From Anaerolineae bacterium (lineage in GTDB: Bacteria; Chloroflexota; Anaerolineae; Promineifilales; Promineifilaceae): a DNA stretch of 42,081 nt. A model generated the notes under the pieces. The model was not told the origin of the DNA and did no database searches. It saw only the letters and a program-made list of their open reading frames with translations. A program made the position numbers and the translations under genes. The stretch is taken from positions 1 to 42,081 of the forward strand of contig JANQGC010000241.1 of the NCBI GenBank assembly GCA_028277515.1, in the 5' to 3' direction. Below are positions 14,712-23,116 of this stretch, in pieces. Within the stretch, counting starts at the first letter, position 1, and each line of letters starts with the position of its first letter.

Positions 14712-15038
14712 TCAGGATGATGTCAGATCGTCAAGTGAGTTGTGAAAGCAGCTTGTTGCCCCTGTATGGCAAGCAGGTCCGGCGGGATTGACCAGGAGCA
14801 GGAGCGTATCACTATCACAATCAAAATATAGTTCTCTCACGCGCATAATGTTTCCTGACGTCCCCCCTTTGTGCCAGGGTTCCTGACGGCTGCGGCTCCA
14901 GAAATGGGCTTCGGCCGTTTTTAGGGTGCGCTGCAAGGCTTCCTGGTTCATCCAGGCCATCATCAAAACTTGTTTCGTATGGCTGTCCTGAACAATCGCC
15001 GGAATAAGCCCATTTTCATTAAATCTCAGATTCTCCAT
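14712..15038 (-). CDS. hisI: phosphoribosyl-AMP cyclohydrolase
   Basis: HisI opens the adenine ring of phosphoribosyl-AMP. The Mg site DCDSDT and the Zn cysteines in CHTGATSC are present, together with the [13 protein letters not shown] signature. I place the start at the ATG at 15038 (108 residues, beginning MENLRF), because GAGGG lies 7 nt upstream and the 10 extra codons of the longer frame (to 15068) would overlap hisF. With this start hisI begins 10 nt after the hisF stop. Confidence 0.94.
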
Positions 15039-15048
15039 AAAGAAACCC

Positions 15049-15816
15049 TCATACTGGACGAATGGCAAATCCTTGCGATTGCAGATAAGACTTCACTTCA
15101 GCGATGCTCAATTGGCGATAATGGAACAAGGATGCAGCGAGGACAGCCTCAGCCCCACCGATCGATAGAGCTTCGGCGAAATGTTCCAGTTTTCCGGCTC
15201 CACCGGAAGCAATGACGGGAATGGACACCGCCTCGCTGATGGCTCTTGTGAGAGGTAGATCATATCCGGCTTGCGTGCCGTCACCATCCATACTGGTTAA
15301 CAGGATTTCACCGGCTCCCCGCTGTTCAACCTCCCTGGCCCAATCAACCGCATCCAAGGGGGTTGCTTCTCGACCCCCGCGGACGAACACCTGCCACTCT
15401 CCTTCATTTTCGGTTTTTTGCCGGGCGTCAATAGCCACAACAACGGCCTGGCTGCCGAATTCGCGAGCGCCATCAGTAATAAGCTGTGGGTTACGTACTG
15501 CGGCGGAATTGATGCTGATTTTATCAGCCCCCGATCGTAAGATGGCGCGCATATCATCGACCGTTCGAATGCCCCCGCCAACGGTAAATGGGATGAAGAC
15601 TTGATCGGCAACGGCGCGGGCCATTTTCATCACGGTTTGCCTGGCTTCGTGCGTAGCCGTAATGTCTAGAAAGACCAGTTCATCAGCACCCGCCGCGTCG
15701 TAAACCTGCGCTTGCTGCACCGGGTCCCCGGCGTCTTGCAGGTCCACAAAATTTACACCTTTGACAACTCGGCCATTTTTTACGTCAAGACAGGGAATAA
15801 TTCTATTGGCAAGCAT
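15049..15816 (-). CDS. hisF: imidazole glycerol phosphate synthase, cyclase subunit
   Basis: HisF is the (beta-alpha)8 barrel that condenses PRFAR with ammonia delivered by HisH, giving IGP and AICAR. It has the first catalytic Asp in [12 protein letters not shown], the second in VVVAIDAR, and phosphate-binding loops TVGGGIR and ASGGAG. The ATG at 15816 (255 residues, MLANRIIP) is preferred over a TTG three codons upstream; GAAGG lies 9 nt before it. Upstream, repeat copy C separates it from hisA. Confidence 0.96.
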
Positions 15817-15845
15817 GATTATCAACCTTCACCGATCTTCGGTAT

Positions 15846-15943
15846 ACTGTTACGAAAATTATTCACACAGAAATCTGACAACTTTTCACTTGATCTATGG
15901 GCGAAAATAATTTAACAAAAGTTGTCAAATTTTAGGTAACACA
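15846..15943. repeat. dispersed hairpin element, copy C (inside the his operon)
   Basis: Arms ATCTGACAACTTTT (15873-15886) and AAAAGTTGTCAAAT (15917-15930) pair with one mismatch. Outer ends read TGTTAC, then AAAATT, in inverted orientation. Very similar to copy D at 35846. The right arm runs into hisA: the TGA stop of hisA (15927-15925) is part of the repeat, as are its last residues LPKI. Confidence 0.8.
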
Positions 15944-16665
15944 ATGTTCAGGGCATCATTTAAATCTACTTTCCCATCATATAGGGCACGGCCGATTATT
16001 AATCCACTTAGCCCCTCCGTGTGGTAACTTATCGTTTTGCGTACATCCTCAAGAGTGGCTACGCCCCCTGAGGCGATGACATTTAAGCCAGTTTGCCGGG
16101 CTAACGTGGCGGCATTCTGCGCATTGACACCAACGAGAACGCCATCACGGCTGATGTCGGTGTAAATGATGGTGCGCACACCCAGTGCGGATATTTGCAG
16201 ACCGAGATCGAGAGGAGTCAACGGCGTCTCAGTTTGCCAGCCCCGTGTTTTGACAACGCCGTCGCGAGCATCAATGCTGACTAAAATGCGCTCCGGCCCA
16301 AATCGACGCACTGCGTCTTCGATAATATCCGGTTCCTCGACGGCCGTTGTGCCTAAAATGACGCGCGAAACCCCGCGATTCAAGGCCTGGGCAACATGGC
16401 GCAAGGTGCGTATGCCGCCCCCAAACTGAGTTTGTACGCCAAGCGCCGTTAGCTTAGGAAGAACAGTCCAATTTTTATCACCAGCTTCATCAAAGGCGCC
16501 ATCAAGGTTGACAATGTGCAGCCATTGGGCACCGGCATCAATCCATTGCTTTCCAATAGCGACGGGATCATTCCCAAATACGGTCTTCTTTTCCAATTCG
16601 CCATATTGCAACCGAACCACCTGCCCCTGGTGTAAATCAATGGCTGGGAAAATATCAAAATTCAT
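15925..16665 (-). CDS. hisA: ProFAR isomerase
   Basis: HisA converts ProFAR to PRFAR by an Amadori rearrangement in a (beta-alpha)8 barrel. Catalytic Asp residues are visible in PAIDLHQGQVVR near the N-terminus and in IIYTDISRDG in the second half; the phosphate loops are FGGGIR and ASGGVA. The ATG at 16665 (246 residues, MNFDIFP) has GGAGG 4 nt upstream, so I prefer it over the ATG at 16680. The 3' end lies in repeat copy C, which supplies the stop codon. It starts 30 nt after hisH. Confidence 0.95.
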   Translation of the reverse strand: MNFDIFPAIDLHQGQVVRLQYGELEKKTVFGNDPVAIGKQWIDAGAQWLHIVNLDGAFDEAGDKNWTVLPKLTALGVQTQFGGGIRTLRHVAQALNRGVSRVILGTTAVEEPDIIEDAVRRFGPERILVSIDARDGVVKTRGWQTETPLTPLDLGLQISALGVRTIIYTDISRDGVLVGVNAQNAATLARQTGLNVIASGGVATLEDVRKTISYHTEGLSGLIIGRALYDGKVDLNDALNIVLPKI

Positions 16666-16695
16666 TGGACCTCCAGGCATACAGTTTTTTACTCG

Positions 16696-17316
16696 TCATA
16701 ATTGGATAAAATTTTGTAAAATTTTCAGGCCAGTTTTTTGACTTTTTTCGGGATGGAACTGGATACCCGTTATATTTTCCCGTGCCACGCCGGACGGGAA
16801 GGGGAATCCAAATTGAGTTTGAATTAAAATATCCTTTTTGTCATCTAGTAGGCAATAATATGAATGGACAAAGTAAGCATAGGCTCCTTCGTTTACCCCA
16901 GCCATAAGGGGATGCTTTTTGCAGGGTTCAATTTGATTCCACCCCATATGCGGAACCTTTAGATCATTATTTTCAAAATTGAAGCGGGTGACTTGGCCAG
17001 GGATGAGACCTAAGCCCTGATGGTTACCCATCTCATCACTTTGGTCAAATAGAAACTGCATCCCTAAACAAATACCCAGCAGGGGCGTACCTTTATCTGC
17101 AGCCTGGATGGTGGCTTCATCAAGCGGGTTCTGTCGAAGCGCGTCCATACCGGCACCAAATGCTCCAACCCCGGGAAGAACCAGTTTTTTCGCCGATAGA
17201 ATTTTTTCGGGGTCATTGGTGAGGGAAACCTCAGCCCCCAGGTGCTCAAACGCCTTTTGAACCGAGCGAATGTTCCCGGCCCCGTAATCGATCATGATGA
17301 TTTTTTTACTGTGCAT
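16696..17316 (-). CDS. hisH: imidazole glycerol phosphate synthase, glutaminase subunit
   Basis: HisH releases ammonia from glutamine for HisF. The class I amidotransferase nucleophile is in GICLGMQ, the His-Glu pair in GIQFHPEKSQ, and the N-terminus IIMIDYGAGNIRSV is typical. The open frame reaches 17397, but those extra 27 codons are translated from repeat copy B and its flank, so I place the start at the ATG at 17316 (207 codons with stop), with CAGGGAT about 7 nt upstream. Confidence 0.95.
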   Translation of the reverse strand: MHSKKIIMIDYGAGNIRSVQKAFEHLGAEVSLTNDPEKILSAKKLVLPGVGAFGAGMDALRQNPLDEATIQAADKGTPLLGICLGMQFLFDQSDEMGNHQGLGLIPGQVTRFNFENNDLKVPHMGWNQIEPCKKHPLMAGVNEGAYAYFVHSYYCLLDDKKDILIQTQFGFPFPSGVARENITGIQFHPEKSQKTGLKILQNFIQL

Positions 17317-17356
17317 GTTTATCCCTGTGTAGATACTACTTAAGTATATATTCGAA

Positions 17357-17440
17357 AGATTTGTCAATTTTAATTTTCTTGTGCCCCTGGAAATCACACA
17401 GAAAAAATTGACAAATCTAATACAAAACTACTTAACTATT
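17357..17440. repeat. dispersed hairpin element, copy B (inside the his operon)
   Basis: A perfect 15-bp inverted repeat, AGATTTGTCAATTTT at 17357-17371 with its complement at 17404-17418, and a 32-nt loop. The loop and right flank match copy A at 8970. It lies between the hisB stop and the hisH start. The minus-strand arm contains a consensus -35 hexamer TTGACA facing hisH, but no good -10 at proper spacing is seen. Confidence 0.8.
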
Positions 17441-17444
17441 GGTT

Positions 17445-18035
17445 TCAGGTTAAAGTTCCCTTCGTTGAAGGCACTTCTACTCGTTTTGGATCTCGAGCAA
17501 CGGCCGTTCTTAATGCGCGCCCCAAGGCTTTAAACAAGGCTTCTGCTTTATGATGATCATTTCGCCCTTCAACTTTTGCATGTAAAGTGAGTCTGGCGTT
17601 TGCGGCAACAGATTCAAAAAAATGCTGGACCAAATCAGTCGGTAGTTGGCCAATCGCCGTTGTGTTCCATTCGGCGGAAAACACGGTGTATGGCCGGCCG
17701 CTGAAATCCAGGGCCACAAATCCAAGGGATTCGTCCATGGGTACATAAGCATGAGCCATTCGATTGATGCCCTTGCGCTCGCCGGCTGCCTTATCTAATG
17801 CCTGCCCAAGGACAATACCCACATCTTCAACTGTATGGTGAACGTCGATGTGCAAGTCACCCTGAGCGATAACATCCAGGTCGATCATCCCGTGTACGGC
17901 AACGGCCGTTAACATATGATCCAAAAATCCTATCCCGGTACTGATATTATGATGTCCTTGACCATCAAGGTTTAGCGTTACTTCTATATCCGTTTCACCC
18001 GTCTTTCTGGTCACAGTTGCTTTTCTTGGTTTCAT
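17445..18035 (-). CDS. hisB: imidazoleglycerol-phosphate dehydratase
   Basis: HisB dehydrates IGP to imidazole acetol phosphate. The 196-residue monofunctional form shows the Mn-binding His clusters [19 protein letters not shown] and [13 protein letters not shown]. There is no N-terminal HAD phosphatase domain as in E. coli HisB, so histidinol-phosphate dephosphorylation must come from elsewhere. It starts one nucleotide after the hisC stop, which implies coupling. Confidence 0.96.
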
Positions 18036-18036
18036 C

Positions 18037-19146
18037 TTAGGCCACCTTTTGCAGGCTATTTATTAAATGGTCCGTATCTTTTGGTCTGCCGGCACTGATA
18101 CGAATACAGTTGGCTAATCCGGGTTTGTTAAAGTATCGAACCAACACGCCTTCCCTGGCCAAATCTTTTTTCAGGTTTTCCGCTGAGCGACCCTGCACAC
18201 GAAACAAAACAAAATTCGCCTGGCTCGGATATGGTTTCAAAAATGGGAACTTCGCTAATTCAGCGACCATGCGCTCCCGTTCTTGGACGATCAATGCCAC
18301 CTTTTCCTGCATCCAACCAGGTTTGTTTAACGAGGCGATTGCCGCTAAGGAGGCAGCTACGTTCACGTTGTAAGGCTGCTTAATCTTCCACAATTGGGGC
18401 AGCAACCATGCGGGAAATATACCATATCCTACGCGTAAACCGGCTAATCCAGCCAATTTGCTGAATGTTCGCAGCACGATTAGATTATTGTGTTCAAGTG
18501 CCCAATGAGTGTAGCTCTTGTATCCGCCGTCTTCGGCGAATTCAATGTAAGCCTCGTCAAGTACGATCAAGATTGGCATTTCCAGCAGCCGGGACAGATC
18601 TTGTGCGCTAATCAGGCTCCCGTCCGGGTTGTTGGGCGAGCAGACAAATAAGAGTTTTATCTGTGGATTGGCGTCAATTGTTGATATGATCCGCTCAATA
18701 TCCAGCGAAAAATCCTCATGGCGCAAAATATTGATAATTTGACCCCCATTGACGGCCGTGGAAAACGGGTACATGCCAAATGAGGGCGGACAATTTAGCA
18801 CCTGGTCTTCTGGTGATAATAAGGCACGTAAGATCAAATCAATAAGTTCGTCAGCTCCCATTCCCGTGAGAATTCTTTCCTTTGGCAAAGCAAGGTAGCT
18901 GGAAATTGCATCTCGTAAAGCGTTGGCTTCCGGATCGGGATAAATATGATACCAATGCCCATTGGCGATTGCCTCAAGTGCTGCCGGTGAGGGGCCATAT
19001 GGATTTTCGTTTGCATCCAACTTGGTAATTTCGTCCGGTGAGCGCCCCAGCATTTCTGAAAGCACCTCAAAGGGCACAATCGGAATGTAAGGCTCCATCT
19101 CTTTAATATCCTGGCGGATTAGCCGCTCTAATTGGTGGGAAGCCAT
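18037..19146 (-). CDS. hisC: histidinol-phosphate aminotransferase
   Basis: A PLP-dependent class II aminotransferase of 369 residues that makes histidinol phosphate from imidazole acetol phosphate and glutamate. Seen are the substrate loop [12 protein letters not shown], the cofactor segment [20 protein letters not shown], and the Schiff-base Lys in [17 protein letters not shown]. It is followed by hisB with a one-base gap and preceded by hisD 24 nt upstream. Members of this family can also act on aromatic amino acids, but operon position fixes the role. Confidence 0.95.
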
Positions 19147-19170
19147 TGGTTTTCCTCATCGTCACGCATA

Positions 19171-20505
19171 CTAGTAGTTTTTAGCCGCTCTTTTTGAAGC
19201 CGAGTTTGCGTGGGCGGTTAATTGTTCCGCCTCGGCAATTCTTTTAGCATGTGGGCTAAGTTCAATTGAAGTTCGGTGATCAAGCTGGACAATGCTGCTG
19301 ATTTTCAGGAAATCGAGCACATTAAGAGGGGATGCGAAACGAGCAGAACCGCCCGTAGGCATCACATGGCTAGGACCGGATACATAATCTCCCAGCACTT
19401 CAAAAGAGTATTCGCCGGCGAATAATCCCCCGGCATTGTTTATTTTGTTTAGCCAATAACCGACATCCTCAACTGCCAGACACGTGTGCTCGGCGGCATA
19501 TTCATTGGCCAGGAGACAGGCCTGATCCAAATCTTCAGTCAGTATGATTCCACCACTGTGTGCCAGGGAAATGGCAATGGTTTCAGCCCTGGTTAAGGTT
19601 TCCATCTGCCGGCCTATTTCAATCTGAACGGCTTCGGCTAACTCTTGAGAAGGGGTGAGCAAGATAGCCGACGCTAATACATCATGCTCAGCCTGGGCCA
19701 GCATATCGGCGGCTACCCACTCCGGATCGGCCGAATCATCGGCAACGACCATCGTTTCCGTGGGACCGTACAGACCGTCAATACCCACATGGCCGTAGAC
19801 TTGCCGTTTGGCCAGGGTTGTGAATAGGTTGCCCGGACCCACGATTTTATCCACCCTGGGGATGGTTTCCGTCCCAAATGCGAAAGCGGCTACGGCCAAT
19901 GCGCCACCGGCGAGATAGATTGACTCTGTCCCGGCTATGGCAGCGGCAGCCAGGATGACATCCGGCACTTTACCACCTTCTTTTCCGGGTGGCGTGGCAA
20001 TAGCAATGTTGGGAACTCCGGCTGCCTGGGCGGGGATAGCAGACATCAACAGAGAGGAGGGCAAGGGGGCTGTTCCTCCAGGCACGTAGATGCCTGCGCT
20101 GCTGACAGGTGTGAATCTTTGTCCCAGGGTCCCTCCCATTTCGGTGGTTGTCCAATTGGGAACGGGTTGGTAGTTGTGGAATTGGCGGATTCGAGATGCT
20201 GCGAGTTCCAACGACTTGAAAAGGCCTTTATCAATTCTGGAGGTGGCCGCACTTAATTCCGATTGGCTTACAACTAAATTTTCGATGTCAATGCCATCTA
20301 TTTTGTTCGTCCAGTGGCGAATCGCCTGATCGCCCTTTGCACGAACTTCGTCAATGAGGTGAGCGACGGCCTCTTCAGGAGTCAGATTCCGCCCAAAAAC
20401 AGCCTTTATCCCTTTTTCGACGGCTTCCGGGATGGCCGTGTCTAGAAATCCTCTACGCCTTTGAATGGAATTTTCAGCCTCGGGAACAGTCATTATTTTT
20501 ATCAT
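19171..20505 (-). CDS. hisD: histidinol dehydrogenase
   Basis: HisD oxidises histidinol to histidine in two NAD-dependent steps and binds Zn. The 444-residue form from the ATG at 20505 is normal for the family, with CTGGAG 5-9 nt upstream. The longer frame to 20607 would overlap hisG and adds unrelated residues. Family signatures are the HisD block around DKIVGPGNLFTTLAKR, EYAAEHTCLAVED with the active Glu-His, and SGPSHVMPTGGSARF. Confidence 0.95.
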   Translation of the reverse strand: MIKIMTVPEAENSIQRRRGFLDTAIPEAVEKGIKAVFGRNLTPEEAVAHLIDEVRAKGDQAIRHWTNKIDGIDIENLVVSQSELSAATSRIDKGLFKSLELAASRIRQFHNYQPVPNWTTTEMGGTLGQRFTPVSSAGIYVPGGTAPLPSSLLMSAIPAQAAGVPNIAIATPPGKEGGKVPDVILAAAAIAGTESIYLAGGALAVAAFAFGTETIPRVDKIVGPGNLFTTLAKRQVYGHVGIDGLYGPTETMVVADDSADPEWVAADMLAQAEHDVLASAILLTPSQELAEAVQIEIGRQMETLTRAETIAISLAHSGGIILTEDLDQACLLANEYAAEHTCLAVEDVGYWLNKINNAGGLFAGEYSFEVLGDYVSGPSHVMPTGGSARFASPLNVLDFLKISSIVQLDHRTSIELSPHAKRIAEAEQLTAHANSASKRAAKNY

Positions 20506-20524
20506 TTTTCTCCAGGTGAATAAC

Positions 20525-21547
20525 TTATGATTGGGAACCGAGGGCTGCAAGCATAGCTTTGTAACGCTCAGGTTCTTCTTCAAAAATATAAGTGCAGGGG
20601 GTGACAATTACCCCGCTTCCGCCAATGCTGCGTAATTCATTGACAGCTTGAAAAATATCCGGTTTACGCACGATAATATTGATGGCAAACCAGCTTGTGC
20701 CATTCTTTAGCTCATCAGGTACGATAACAGGTGAAATTGTTGGTCCTTGTAAACCGCCAATTGTCGTTTGATTAAACATACGGTTGGCAATGCTTTGTTG
20801 GGTATCTCCACGGATGTTGGCCGTCACGACAAATGAGCCTTGAGCGCGCAAATAAGCCTCAAAATATTCCAACAATTCTTGAGCAACGTTTAGAACTTCT
20901 TGATTTTCCGATAATGCGCGACGATTGGCGATCAGACAGGCTTCTGATTTTATTATTTGGCCGTTTTCGACGATCCGTAGATGGTTATCGTGCAGCGTGA
21001 GACCGGAAGAAACGAGGTCGGCGATGATATCGGCAAATCCGATTTCAGGCGCAATTTCTAAGGTCCCTTCCGCACTGATTAAACGATAAGGCTGAATTTG
21101 ATAGTTGTCTAAAAACTGTTTGGTTAGTTTGGGGAACTTGGTTGCTACTCGAAGGGAGCGGCCGTCGACCTTTAATCTTTTGGCCCAATCCTTCAAATCT
21201 TCGATGGATTTTTCTTTTTGATCTTCGGGTATTGCCAAATTCAGTGTACAGGGACCAAACCCCAGGGCATCATGGAGAACCAGTATTGATTGGCTGCCAA
21301 ACGCTTTTTCGGCCACAATGTCATATCCCGTAATTCCAAAATCAACGCTGCCCTGGCGCACACCAACAACGATGTCTCCTGGGCGTTGAAATAATACAGT
21401 CACACCCGGCAGATTGGGAACAGTTGCTACATATTGACGGTTATTGGGCCGGTAAACCTTTAACCCACAATTGGCCAGAAAATCAATGGCATCATTTCTA
21501 AGTACACCTTTGCTCGGTAAGCCCAGACGAATATCTGTCCGTTTCAT
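20525..21547 (-). CDS. hisG: ATP phosphoribosyltransferase
   Basis: HisG joins ATP and PRPP, the first and usually feedback-controlled step. The start at the ATG at 21547 (MKRTDIRLGLPSKG) gives 340 residues, somewhat longer than the usual 280-300 of the long form. Periplasmic-binding-like core motifs are present (VGVRQGSVDFGITGYDIV; ISAEGTLEIAPEIGFADIIADLVSSG), and a C-terminal part with ELRSIGGSGVIVTPC suggests the ACT-like regulatory domain of long HisG. No hisZ is seen, in keeping with the long form. It is the first structural gene, 33 nt after the attenuator terminator. Confidence 0.95.
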   Translation of the reverse strand: MKRTDIRLGLPSKGVLRNDAIDFLANCGLKVYRPNNRQYVATVPNLPGVTVLFQRPGDIVVGVRQGSVDFGITGYDIVAEKAFGSQSILVLHDALGFGPCTLNLAIPEDQKEKSIEDLKDWAKRLKVDGRSLRVATKFPKLTKQFLDNYQIQPYRLISAEGTLEIAPEIGFADIIADLVSSGLTLHDNHLRIVENGQIIKSEACLIANRRALSENQEVLNVAQELLEYFEAYLRAQGSFVVTANIRGDTQQSIANRMFNQTTIGGLQGPTISPVIVPDELKNGTSWFAINIIVRKPDIFQAVNELRSIGGSGVIVTPCTYIFEEEPERYKAMLAALGSQS

Positions 21548-21579: not shown

Positions 21580-21614
21580 AAAAAAACACCCTCCTCGTTG
21601 CCGAGAAGGGTGTT
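21580..21614 (-). terminator. his operon attenuator (intrinsic terminator in the leader)
   Basis: In the minus-strand RNA, AACACCCU-U-CUCG pairs with CGAG-G-AGGGUGUU around a GCAA (GNRA) tetraloop; the stem is 13 bp with one U-G wobble. Seven U follow. It sits 26 nt after the stop of the His-rich leader ORF and 33 nt before the hisG start, exactly where a ribosome-controlled attenuator should be. An alternative pairing of CCGAG (21648-21644) with the CUCGG of the terminator 5' arm could act as antiterminator. Confidence 0.88.
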
Positions 21615-21639
21615 GTCGATACAATGGATTAATTCAACC

Positions 21640-21729
21640 TCAACTCGGGGCAGGCGATCGTTTCTTGTGATGAGCGTGATAGTGAGCGTTGACCTGATTC
21701 GGCCGAATTGGAAGCAATTTAAATATCAT
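21640..21729 (-). CDS. hisL: his operon leader peptide
   Basis: A 29-codon ORF from the ATG at 21729 to TGA at 21640. Codons 16-21 read His-Tyr-His-Ala-His-His, followed by Lys-Lys-Arg, so four of six consecutive codons are His. It lies between a candidate promoter and the terminator upstream of hisG. The expected logic is that scarce charged tRNA-His stalls the ribosome at these codons and favours an antiterminator pairing. No strong Shine-Dalgarno is seen; the predicted transcript start lies only a few nucleotides before the ATG, so translation may be leaderless. Confidence 0.85.
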   Translation of the reverse strand: MIFKLLPIRPNQVNAHYHAHHKKRSPAPS

Positions 21730-21739
21730 GACGTGCGGA

Positions 21740-21768
21740 AGTTTAGCACAATGAACTTTTAAGAGCAA
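21740..21768 (-). promoter_or_regulatory. candidate his operon promoter
   Basis: On the minus strand TTGCTC (21768-21763) and TAAACT (21745-21740) are 17 bp apart, and TG lies one base before the -10, making it an extended -10. The -10 ends 10 nt before the leader ATG. A weak AGAGCA/TGCTCT hairpin (21762-21782) overlaps the -35 and follows the stop of the riboflavin gene upstream. Confidence 0.6.
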
Positions 21769-21790: not shown

Positions 21791-23116
21791 CTATTGATAA
21801 ATGATATTTCCCGTCATCACAATGTCCTTGCCAAACAATTGAAATTTAGCATCTTCAATTTTTGGCAGCGTTATTTTTTGCGGGGTTTCATGATTGATGA
21901 GCGGATTTAAACCACCGATGAGTTTTGGGGCGATGGTGATTACCAGTTGATCGGCCAATTTATCGTGAAGGAAGCCGGCAATGACTGCGGCCCCACCCTC
22001 GACCATCAGACTTTCTATTCCGGACGTGGCTAAAAAGTCGATCAACTGCGGTAAACTTATATCTCCTTTGTCGGATGCGGGTATTCTTATCACCCGGGCG
22101 CCTAATGACTCTAAAAATGCCTGTTTTGATTGGGATGCTGTGGGAGTTGTGATTAACCAGGGTTTGCGATTTTTCAGCAGCTTTGCTTGTGGTGGAAACC
22201 GCAGTTGGCTGTCGAGGACAATCGGCTGAGGATCAGGACCATCGACGAGGCGAACAGTGAGCCGGGGATCATCAGCTAAAACGGTTCCGATGCCAACTAG
22301 AATGGCATCATGATCTGCGCGCATTTGGTGAGTCATCTTTAGAGATTCCGGGCCGCTGATTATCAAGGTTTCCCCGGACCTTGTGGTAATTGATCCGTCC
22401 AGGCTCTGGGCATATGTGATGGTGATGCTCGGCCGTTTTTGATGGGTGGAAGGTGTCGGTTCAAGCTTTTCTATTGGATTTGGATGTCCATTATTAGCTA
22501 CTGATTGTGAGAGTTGCTTCAGGTCCAGCATATGATGCATGCGTGAGACTTTCGTTTGTAAATACGCCGCGTTTTCCTGGTTTATTTCTGTTTGCAGCGG
22601 AATTCTAGAATTGACTGTTACCCCGGAATCGTGAAGGCTTTCAATTTTTTGCGGATTATTGGTCAATAAACGAATAGATTGAACGCCTAAATCTTTTAAA
22701 ATCAAACTGGCAATGGTGTAATCCCGGCTGTCTGCCTGGTGGCCAAGCATAAGATTGGCTTCGACTGTATCAAAGCCGTCATCTTGCAGGTTGTATGCTC
22801 TTAACTTATCTAAAAGGCCAATACCTCTTCCTTCCTGGCGCAAATAAATGATGATACCACTTTCAGCCTCAGCAATGAGATGTAGAGCTGTTTGAAGTTG
22901 GGGGCCGCAGTCGCAGCGCAATGAGCCTAGCACATCTCCTGTGAAGCACTCTGAATGAACGCGAACCAATACATCGTTTTTCCCCTGGATTTTCCCTTTT
23001 ACTAAGGCGAGATGCTCTTTTTTATCAACATTATTTCGATAATGGCAAAGCTGAAATTCTCCCAACTCCGTTGGGATGCGAGCAGATGTCATTTTTTCGA
23101 CGTTTAATTGGTTCAT
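21791..23116 (-). CDS. GTP cyclohydrolase II fused to RibD-type reductase
   Basis: A 441-residue two-domain riboflavin enzyme. Residues 10-205 are GTP cyclohydrolase II (RibA), with Zn ligands C57, C68 and C70 in CFTGDVLGSLRCDC and the RQEGRGIGL catalytic segment. Residues about 229-441 are a RibD C-terminal reductase domain (SITITYAQSLDGSI, DAILVGIGTVLADDPRLTVR, LMVEGGAAVIAGFL). RibA makes the pyrimidine that, after deamination, the reductase domain reduces; the deaminase domain of RibD and the DHBP synthase RibB are both absent here and must be encoded elsewhere. The start overlaps the rlmB stop as ATGA, so the two are coupled. Confidence 0.92.
   Translation of the reverse strand: MNQLNVEKMTSARIPTELGEFQLCHYRNNVDKKEHLALVKGKIQGKNDVLVRVHSECFTGDVLGSLRCDCGPQLQTALHLIAEAESGIIIYLRQEGRGIGLLDKLRAYNLQDDGFDTVEANLMLGHQADSRDYTIASLILKDLGVQSIRLLTNNPQKIESLHDSGVTVNSRIPLQTEINQENAAYLQTKVSRMHHMLDLKQLSQSVANNGHPNPIEKLEPTPSTHQKRPSITITYAQSLDGSITTRSGETLIISGPESLKMTHQMRADHDAILVGIGTVLADDPRLTVRLVDGPDPQPIVLDSQLRFPPQAKLLKNRKPWLITTPTASQSKQAFLESLGARVIRIPASDKGDISLPQLIDFLATSGIESLMVEGGAAVIAGFLHDKLADQLVITIAPKLIGGLNPLINHETPQKITLPKIEDAKFQLFGKDIVMTGNIIYQ

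Follow-up and report, generated by a model that had tools for sequence, protein, structure and literature searches.

How might a member of the Chloroflexota match transcription of its histidine biosynthesis operon to the supply of histidine? The question is posed by contig JANQGC010000241.1 of an Anaerolineae bacterium (assembly GCA_028277515.1), analyzed here over 42,081 nucleotides (nt; this whole stretch is called the window), in which a short open reading frame (ORF) with clustered His codons precedes hisG and an intrinsic terminator lies between the two. A preliminary description, drawn up from the letters of this stretch, had proposed an attenuator at this position. Our analysis argues for a histidine-responsive, ribosome-mediated transcription attenuator of the his operon, a reading to which we assign a probability of about 0.9. 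It is built on features of the sequence, namely the ORF, its His codons, the terminator, the promoter spacing, and the co-variation in relatives of two RNA segments, regions 2 and 3.

Conservation of the leader

The 29-codon ORF, its His-Tyr-His-Ala-His-His run at codons 16 to 21, and a terminator with a 13-bp stem, GCAA tetraloop, and seven U residues had all been claimed beforehand; the ORF proved base-exact and correctly placed, and the hairpin was present as described. As expected of an attenuator, codons for the operon's own product are clustered in the ORF, and the terminator stands between that ORF and the first structural gene. The stem (21614 to 21585) comprises 13 pairs, one of them G-U, around a loop at 21601 to 21598, with the T run at 21586 to 21580, and among seven terminator-like sites between 14,000 and 24,000 it was the sole one with more than eight pairs. 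Taken alone, the window is suggestive; it is the comparative data on relatives that place the attenuator beyond chance.

A HisG scan confirmed by tblastn yielded 11 loci titled Chloroflexi, Anaerolineae, or Ardenticatenaceae metagenome-assembled genomes (MAGs), the nearest being 74% identical. HisG was found in 287 of 396 genomes of the class of L001, which includes one Anaerolineae- and one Ardenticatenaceae-labelled MAG genome, and 110 upstream regions (30 plus 80 loci) were picked by HisG similarity among the matches listed, not at random, with weak HisG matches left out. Adding the 11 named loci and the window and removing six duplicates gave 116 non-redundant hisG upstream regions. A leader was scored where an ATG or GTG ORF with at least three His in seven codons was followed by a terminator of at least eight pairs, the U tract being a selection criterion. 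Such a His-rich ORF and terminator were found in 55 of the 116 regions, the window included, 54 by the rule and one (L007) by hand, its leader ORF having five His spaced more widely than the rule demands. Retention of the His codons in relatives had been named as a check, and in each of the 11 named loci hisG was preceded by a leader ORF and a terminator arranged alike, 10 of the loci satisfying the His rule. Across the 55 leaders, His was encoded by 176 CAT and 96 CAC codons, a mix indicating that the amino acid and not the bases is conserved.

When the ORF was picked by the position of a promoter -10 element alone, 42 of 45 were His-rich, whereas the next residue, Arg, reached 6 of 45 and none was higher; these 45, the only regions scored, were those with a strong -10 among 56 with an ORF, from 58 upstream regions with a terminator. 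A chance reading frame was rejected on this basis. The same His-ORF and terminator rule, applied as a control to both strands of 388,081 bases of trpE, ilvB, and leuA loci, gave five hits, three of which were one ORF with different starts and none of which had a good -10. Scanned in the same manner, ten his loci of 5.5 to 9 kb gave hits at the leader itself and nowhere else.

Antiterminator pairing in relatives

Pairing was tested over 37 sequence clusters with less than 70% identity between them, region 2 being the RNA that runs from the last His codon to the stop region, and region 3 the terminator 5' arm plus loop. In all 37 clusters regions 2 and 3 beat their own dinucleotide-shuffle mean (mean z -1.86; p<=0.05 in 18 of 37). 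When partners were swapped between clusters, real pairs averaged -18.71 kcal/mol and swapped pairs -14.64 kcal/mol, with 0 of 20,000 permutations as good. The swap z was -3.8 with the terminator arm alone and -8.4 with arm and loop; the arm had been proposed as the antiterminator's partner, and that part stands, but the loop also takes part. Five control segments, comprising the ORF start, upstream DNA, DNA after the terminator, the stretch from stop codon to terminator, and the His codons (long enough in 31 of 37 clusters), gave z between -0.6 and +1.3, the stop-to-terminator stretch pairing with region 3 at chance level in the swap test over clusters (z +0.4). Confining swaps to four terminator-motif groups, which we drew from the letters of the terminator arm, left z at -7.3 with 0 of 20,000 permutations as good; taken singly, the groups had 0, 1, 5, and 80 of 20,000.

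Compensatory change, also named as a check, was evident as GGTCGGG/CCCGACC in L073 and within L041 versus GACCGGG/CCCGGTC in L046, and in the pairs TCGAAGG/CCTTCGA (L042), GATTCGGG/CCCGAATC (L027), and GGTCAGG/CCTGACC (L028). As judged from these comparisons over 37 clusters, the co-variation expected of an antiterminator is not due to chance. In the window, the CCGAG at 21648 to 21644 to which attention had been drawn is present and able to pair with the CTCGG closing the terminator 5' arm, and the TGA of the leader ORF sits inside CCGAGTTGAGG. In 31 of 37 clusters, region 2 starts 8 to 25 nt past the final His codon (a spacing read afterwards, with no null), approximately at the edge of a stalled ribosome, which lies about 12 nt downstream (PMC4833913), so that a stall would free region 2 for the antiterminator.

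Promoter and probable start of the leader

Of the occurrences of TGNTANNNT in the 80 nt upstream of the 55 leader starts, 44 were 6 to 11 nt away, with 28 at exactly 10 nt, and five lay at other distances; L040 and L098 were without a -10. Start codons with a -10 within 5 to 12 nt were preferred, so the spacing peak at 10 nt is partly shaped by selection; that choice made no use of the -35, of the purine at -3, or of the pyrimidine at -4. Among the 31 leaders with TANNNT at 10 nt (close relatives kept), a purine lay 3 nt before the ATG in all 31, preceded by a pyrimidine in 30, and the best -35 had five of six matches in 22, compared with about 0.4 expected from shuffles. The window's own -35, with three of six, is poorer than is typical of these relatives. 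A Shine-Dalgarno core preceded the leader ORF in 1 of 55 and lay near the hisG start in 40 of 55. The leader is probably near-leaderless, with a 5' untranslated region (UTR) of about 3 nt and no Shine-Dalgarno, as suggested by the promoter spacing (a feature absent from the preliminary description), which typically leaves 10 nt from the end of the -10 to the leader ATG, by the pyrimidine-purine initiator 3 nt before that ATG, and by the finding that 54 of 55 leaders have no Shine-Dalgarno core; we infer the start site from the promoter spacing. Leaderless genes have been recorded in 4 of 12 Chloroflexi genomes surveyed, at a mean of 4.7% of genes (PMC3160421).

Organization of the locus

Features of the window are collected in Table 1. 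A Shine-Dalgarno AAGGA (21561 to 21557) precedes the hisG ATG, and the layout suggests that hisG and the downstream his genes are co-transcribed. The listed hisD ORF overlaps hisG, and its true start is probably further downstream.

Table 1. Features of the his leader region and neighboring genes in the window
Feature	Position	Strand	Remarks
rib gene	21791-23116	-	Single ORF: GTP cyclohydrolase II (RibA) joined to RibD C-terminal reductase domain; directly upstream of the leader region
-35 element, TTGCTC, weak (3/6 matches)	21763..21768	-	17 nt before the -10
Extended -10, TGC-TAAACT	21740..21748	-	Ten bases between -10 and leader ATG
Predicted transcription start (G preceded by C), 3 nt upstream of the ATG	21732	-	Predicted from the relatives' initiator pattern
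His leader peptide ORF, 29 codons + TGA	21640..21729	-	Reads MIFKLLPIRPNQVNAHYHAHHKKRSPAPS, then stop
Region 1, codons 5-9	21703..21715	-	Pairs with region 2 in the ribosome-free minimum-energy fold
Regulatory codons 16-21, His-Tyr-His-Ala-His-His	21667..21684	-	Translation of the leader ORF
Region 2, antiterminator 5' half, CCGAGTTGAGG around the stop codon	21638..21648	-	Counterpart of the close relatives' TGGGTTGAGG-like motif
Region 3, terminator 5' arm + GCAA loop, antiterminator partner	21598..21614	-	Hairpin scan and pairing tests
Intrinsic terminator, 13-bp stem, GCAA loop, seven U	21580..21614	-	Hairpin scan and folding
hisG, first structural gene	20525..21547	-	NCBIfam TIGR00070 (175.7 bits), TIGR03455
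hisD, hisC, hisB, hisH, hisA, hisF, hisI	14712..20607	-	Same direction, downstream of hisG

Counterevidence and alternative explanations

Several observations weigh against the attenuator. By itself, the 171-nt leader of the window folds only mildly better than its shuffles (z -1.63, 14 of 200 being equally stable), and the window's own region 2-3 pairing fell short of significance (z -1.42, p 0.097). Once the 3' arm has been made, the minimum-energy fold of each state tried contains the terminator, and the model therefore depends on co-transcriptional timing. Folding the leader in both states had been put forward as a check. Before the 3' arm emerges the required fold was obtained, its energy being -11.6 kcal/mol for a ribosome placed on codon 16, 18, or 20 and -10.0 for one on codon 21; with the ribosome at the stop codon the terminator alone remained (-22.8 kcal/mol). 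Region 1 precedes the His codons in the window, making its masking by a stalled ribosome uncertain. In the window, and wherever region 2 lies close to the stop codon, a ribosome halted there would cover it. In 15 of the 37 clusters, region 2 starts 25 to 48 nt ahead of the stop codon's last base, too far for such coverage, and the 1:2 hairpin must act; that pairing appears moderately supported by the swap over the 37 clusters (z -3.3, 16 of 20,000 permutations as good). An earlier test with the 5' arm as sole partner gave p<=0.05 in 7 of 55, and the partner region was widened into the loop after the data had been seen, the swap tests and controls being run afterwards as a check. The signature was absent from 61 of 116 hisG upstream regions; another frame ended at most 120 nt before hisG in 28 of these, three were contig ends, and 30 were free of both, a leader being visible by eye in seven of the 30, outside the 55 (L033, L034, L039, L044, L049, L062, and L063). 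Finally, a phylum-wide search of 60 regions gave L143 as the only plausible case, with 52 of the 60 uninformative because another frame ends just before hisG.

Three other explanations were weighed. The leader could act on hisG translation or re-initiation and not on transcription termination, which we consider improbable. The conserved hairpin carries a U tract, itself a selection criterion, and in the 55 positives it ends 19 to 198 nt before the HisG match start, leaving room outside the hairpin for a hisG Shine-Dalgarno, a core of which was counted above near the hisG start in 40 of them.

It is more improbable still that the hairpin does no more than terminate transcription of the upstream rib gene, which ends at 21791, and that the His-rich ORF is a chance frame. 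Such a reading would accord with a window leader only mildly more stable than its shuffles, and the hairpin may serve rib termination in addition. A promoter-like site nevertheless lies between rib and the hairpin, the ORF chosen by its -10 was His-rich in 42 of 45 relatives, with co-varying pairs, and the relatives' sequences farther upstream look different on inspection; the promoter-like site, the ORF in relatives, and the co-variation led us to reject a plain rib terminator.

Least credible is direct sensing of histidyl-tRNA or histidine by the RNA itself, as a T-box or other riboswitch with the ORF incidental: T-boxes do exist in Chloroflexota, before trpE in L184, L188, and L191 and below threshold before hisG in L137 and L176, but the window leader matched no Rfam family at gathering score, ten his loci run against Rfam gave neither a T-box nor a His_leader match, and the leader ahead of the terminator is about 120 nt long in the window versus the approximately 310 to 330 nt spanned by T-box matches. 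Up to E 10, the window leader gave weak matches to the PyrG, PyrR, and L10 leaders only. No T-box (RF00230) was matched before the window's hisG and no enterobacterial His_leader (RF00514) in the window, either at gathering score or up to E 10, and no His_leader in the ten his loci at gathering score. The T-box model works in these relatives, since T-boxes were found at their trpE. On the Rfam searches of the window and the ten loci, a T-box or other known RNA family was rejected for the window leader.

Other amino acid operons

Regions upstream of ilvB, leuA, and trpE were inspected in 30 genomes carrying the his leader. A short ORF rich in Leu, Ile, or Val followed by a terminator was present in 12 of 26 ilvB upstream regions (L216, L223, L225, L226, L227, L228, L229, L230, L231, L233, L234, and L236), which are partly close relatives. 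Often, the terminator arm and loop of these leaders could pair with a CTGTTGGG-like motif; their regions 2 and 3 paired better than swapped partners (equalled in 9 of 20,000 permutations), and a good -10 lay at 6 to 11 nt in 6 of the 12. From these sequence features, the ilvB leaders are probable branched-chain amino acid (BCAA) attenuators. No leader or terminator was found in 24 leuA upstream regions, a negative that says little because leuA is mostly found on the ilvB contig, a few kb behind that gene, and no Trp-rich ORF with a terminator behind it was seen among 25 trpE upstream regions.

T-boxes above the Rfam gathering score preceded trpE in three of six loci tested (L184, L188, and L191), in genomes with a his leader peptide. 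In the genomes from the phylum-wide search, the hisG upstream regions of L137 and L176 were T-box-like, their scores of 75.6 and 78 bits (E ~1e-16) falling short of the gathering score of 93. Given his leader peptides, trpE T-boxes, and T-box-like hisG upstream regions, the phylum appears to use both devices. L143, from the same search, may carry a His leader, which ends NHHHHEQG and has a 15-bp hairpin but is laid out differently at its 5' side.

Discussion

From the features of the locus we infer that the leader is translated and that it responds to histidine, in the following manner. The transcript would start some 3 nt upstream of the leader ATG, giving a near-leaderless end on which a ribosome would load. 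Where charged histidyl-tRNA is scarce, the ribosome would stall on the His codons and leave region 2, just ahead of it, free to pair with the terminator 5' arm and loop as they emerge; with the terminator blocked, polymerase would continue into hisG and the his genes that follow. Where histidine is plentiful, the ribosome would reach the TGA within region 2 and cover that region, the terminator would form, and the operon would be off. If the leader were not translated, region 1 would pair with region 2, making termination the default.

Attenuators of this kind are known; the near-leaderless form in Chloroflexota looks new. The enterobacterial his attenuator (hisL) likewise combines a short ORF with clustered His codons, an antiterminator, and an intrinsic terminator before the his operon, and the preliminary description had assigned the window the enterobacterial architecture. 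That comparison holds for the terminator and antiterminator logic, but not for initiation of the leader, with its predicted 5' UTR of about 3 nt and no Shine-Dalgarno. The Chloroflexota leader, which in the window lacks an Rfam match to the hisL family even at E 10, is probably near-leaderless and has an antiterminator that uses the terminator loop. Its His codons in the window are interspersed (four of six), in contrast to the seven consecutive ones of the enterobacterial peptide (PMC3896937).

The contrast drawn previously between his attenuation in Proteobacteria and His T-boxes in Gram-positive bacteria is too simple, because His leader peptides are in print for Firmicutes and bacilli (PMC9413887, PMC2965389). 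Attenuators of this type are described in three Firmicutes lineages, the B. cereus group, Peptostreptococcaceae/Lutispora, and Erysipelotrichales, where, as in the window, a candidate His leader peptide, a terminator, and an antiterminator precede his operons (PMC9413887); these belong to a different phylum, are set beside the Chloroflexota leader here by description, and the excerpted text makes no mention of a leaderless start. In bacilli, His leader peptides lie before hisZ and a hisS paralog, and the authors of that 2010 paper (PMC2965389) were aware of leader-peptide systems in Proteobacteria and Actinobacteria but in no other group. The Rfam amino acid attenuator families have been viewed as probably gamma-proteobacterial in origin (PMC3766115). 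Two actinobacterial systems share other traits. The mycobacterial poly-Cys attenuators have a leaderless short ORF in which contiguous cognate codons set ribosome speed (PMC9031893); they differ in responding to cysteine, in belonging to Actinobacteria, and in that no conserved terminator hairpin was found in the mycobacterial cys leaders (PMC1262725). The Corynebacterium ilvBNC leader is rich in BCAA codons and subject to attenuation, and a title cited in PMC10272879 mentions leader peptide formation without a ribosome binding site; being actinobacterial and concerned with BCAAs, it is closer to the Chloroflexota ilvB leaders than to the his leader. Within the open-licence PMC literature, no report of such his attenuation for Chloroflexota was found.

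For this class of Chloroflexota, probably Anaerolineae, we see an even chance that near-leaderless attenuation is general for amino acid operons (his and ilv at least) and independent of the proteobacterial systems; that a ribosome on a 5' AUG at its emergence would set coupling from the first bases, with the antiterminator grabbing the terminator loop before the 3' arm is made; and that the his operon has switched between T-box and leader peptide within the phylum.

These findings would extend ribosome-mediated his attenuation to a phylum for which we found no earlier report, and they raise the question of whether initiation on a 5'-terminal AUG loads the ribosome quickly enough for coupling. 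They also supply an annotation rule for tiny genes that are easily overlooked, namely an extended -10, about 10 nt, an ATG, a His run, and a terminator. A single phylum with T-box and leader-peptide control of the same pathway, maybe side by side, would be useful for studies of how one device replaces the other.
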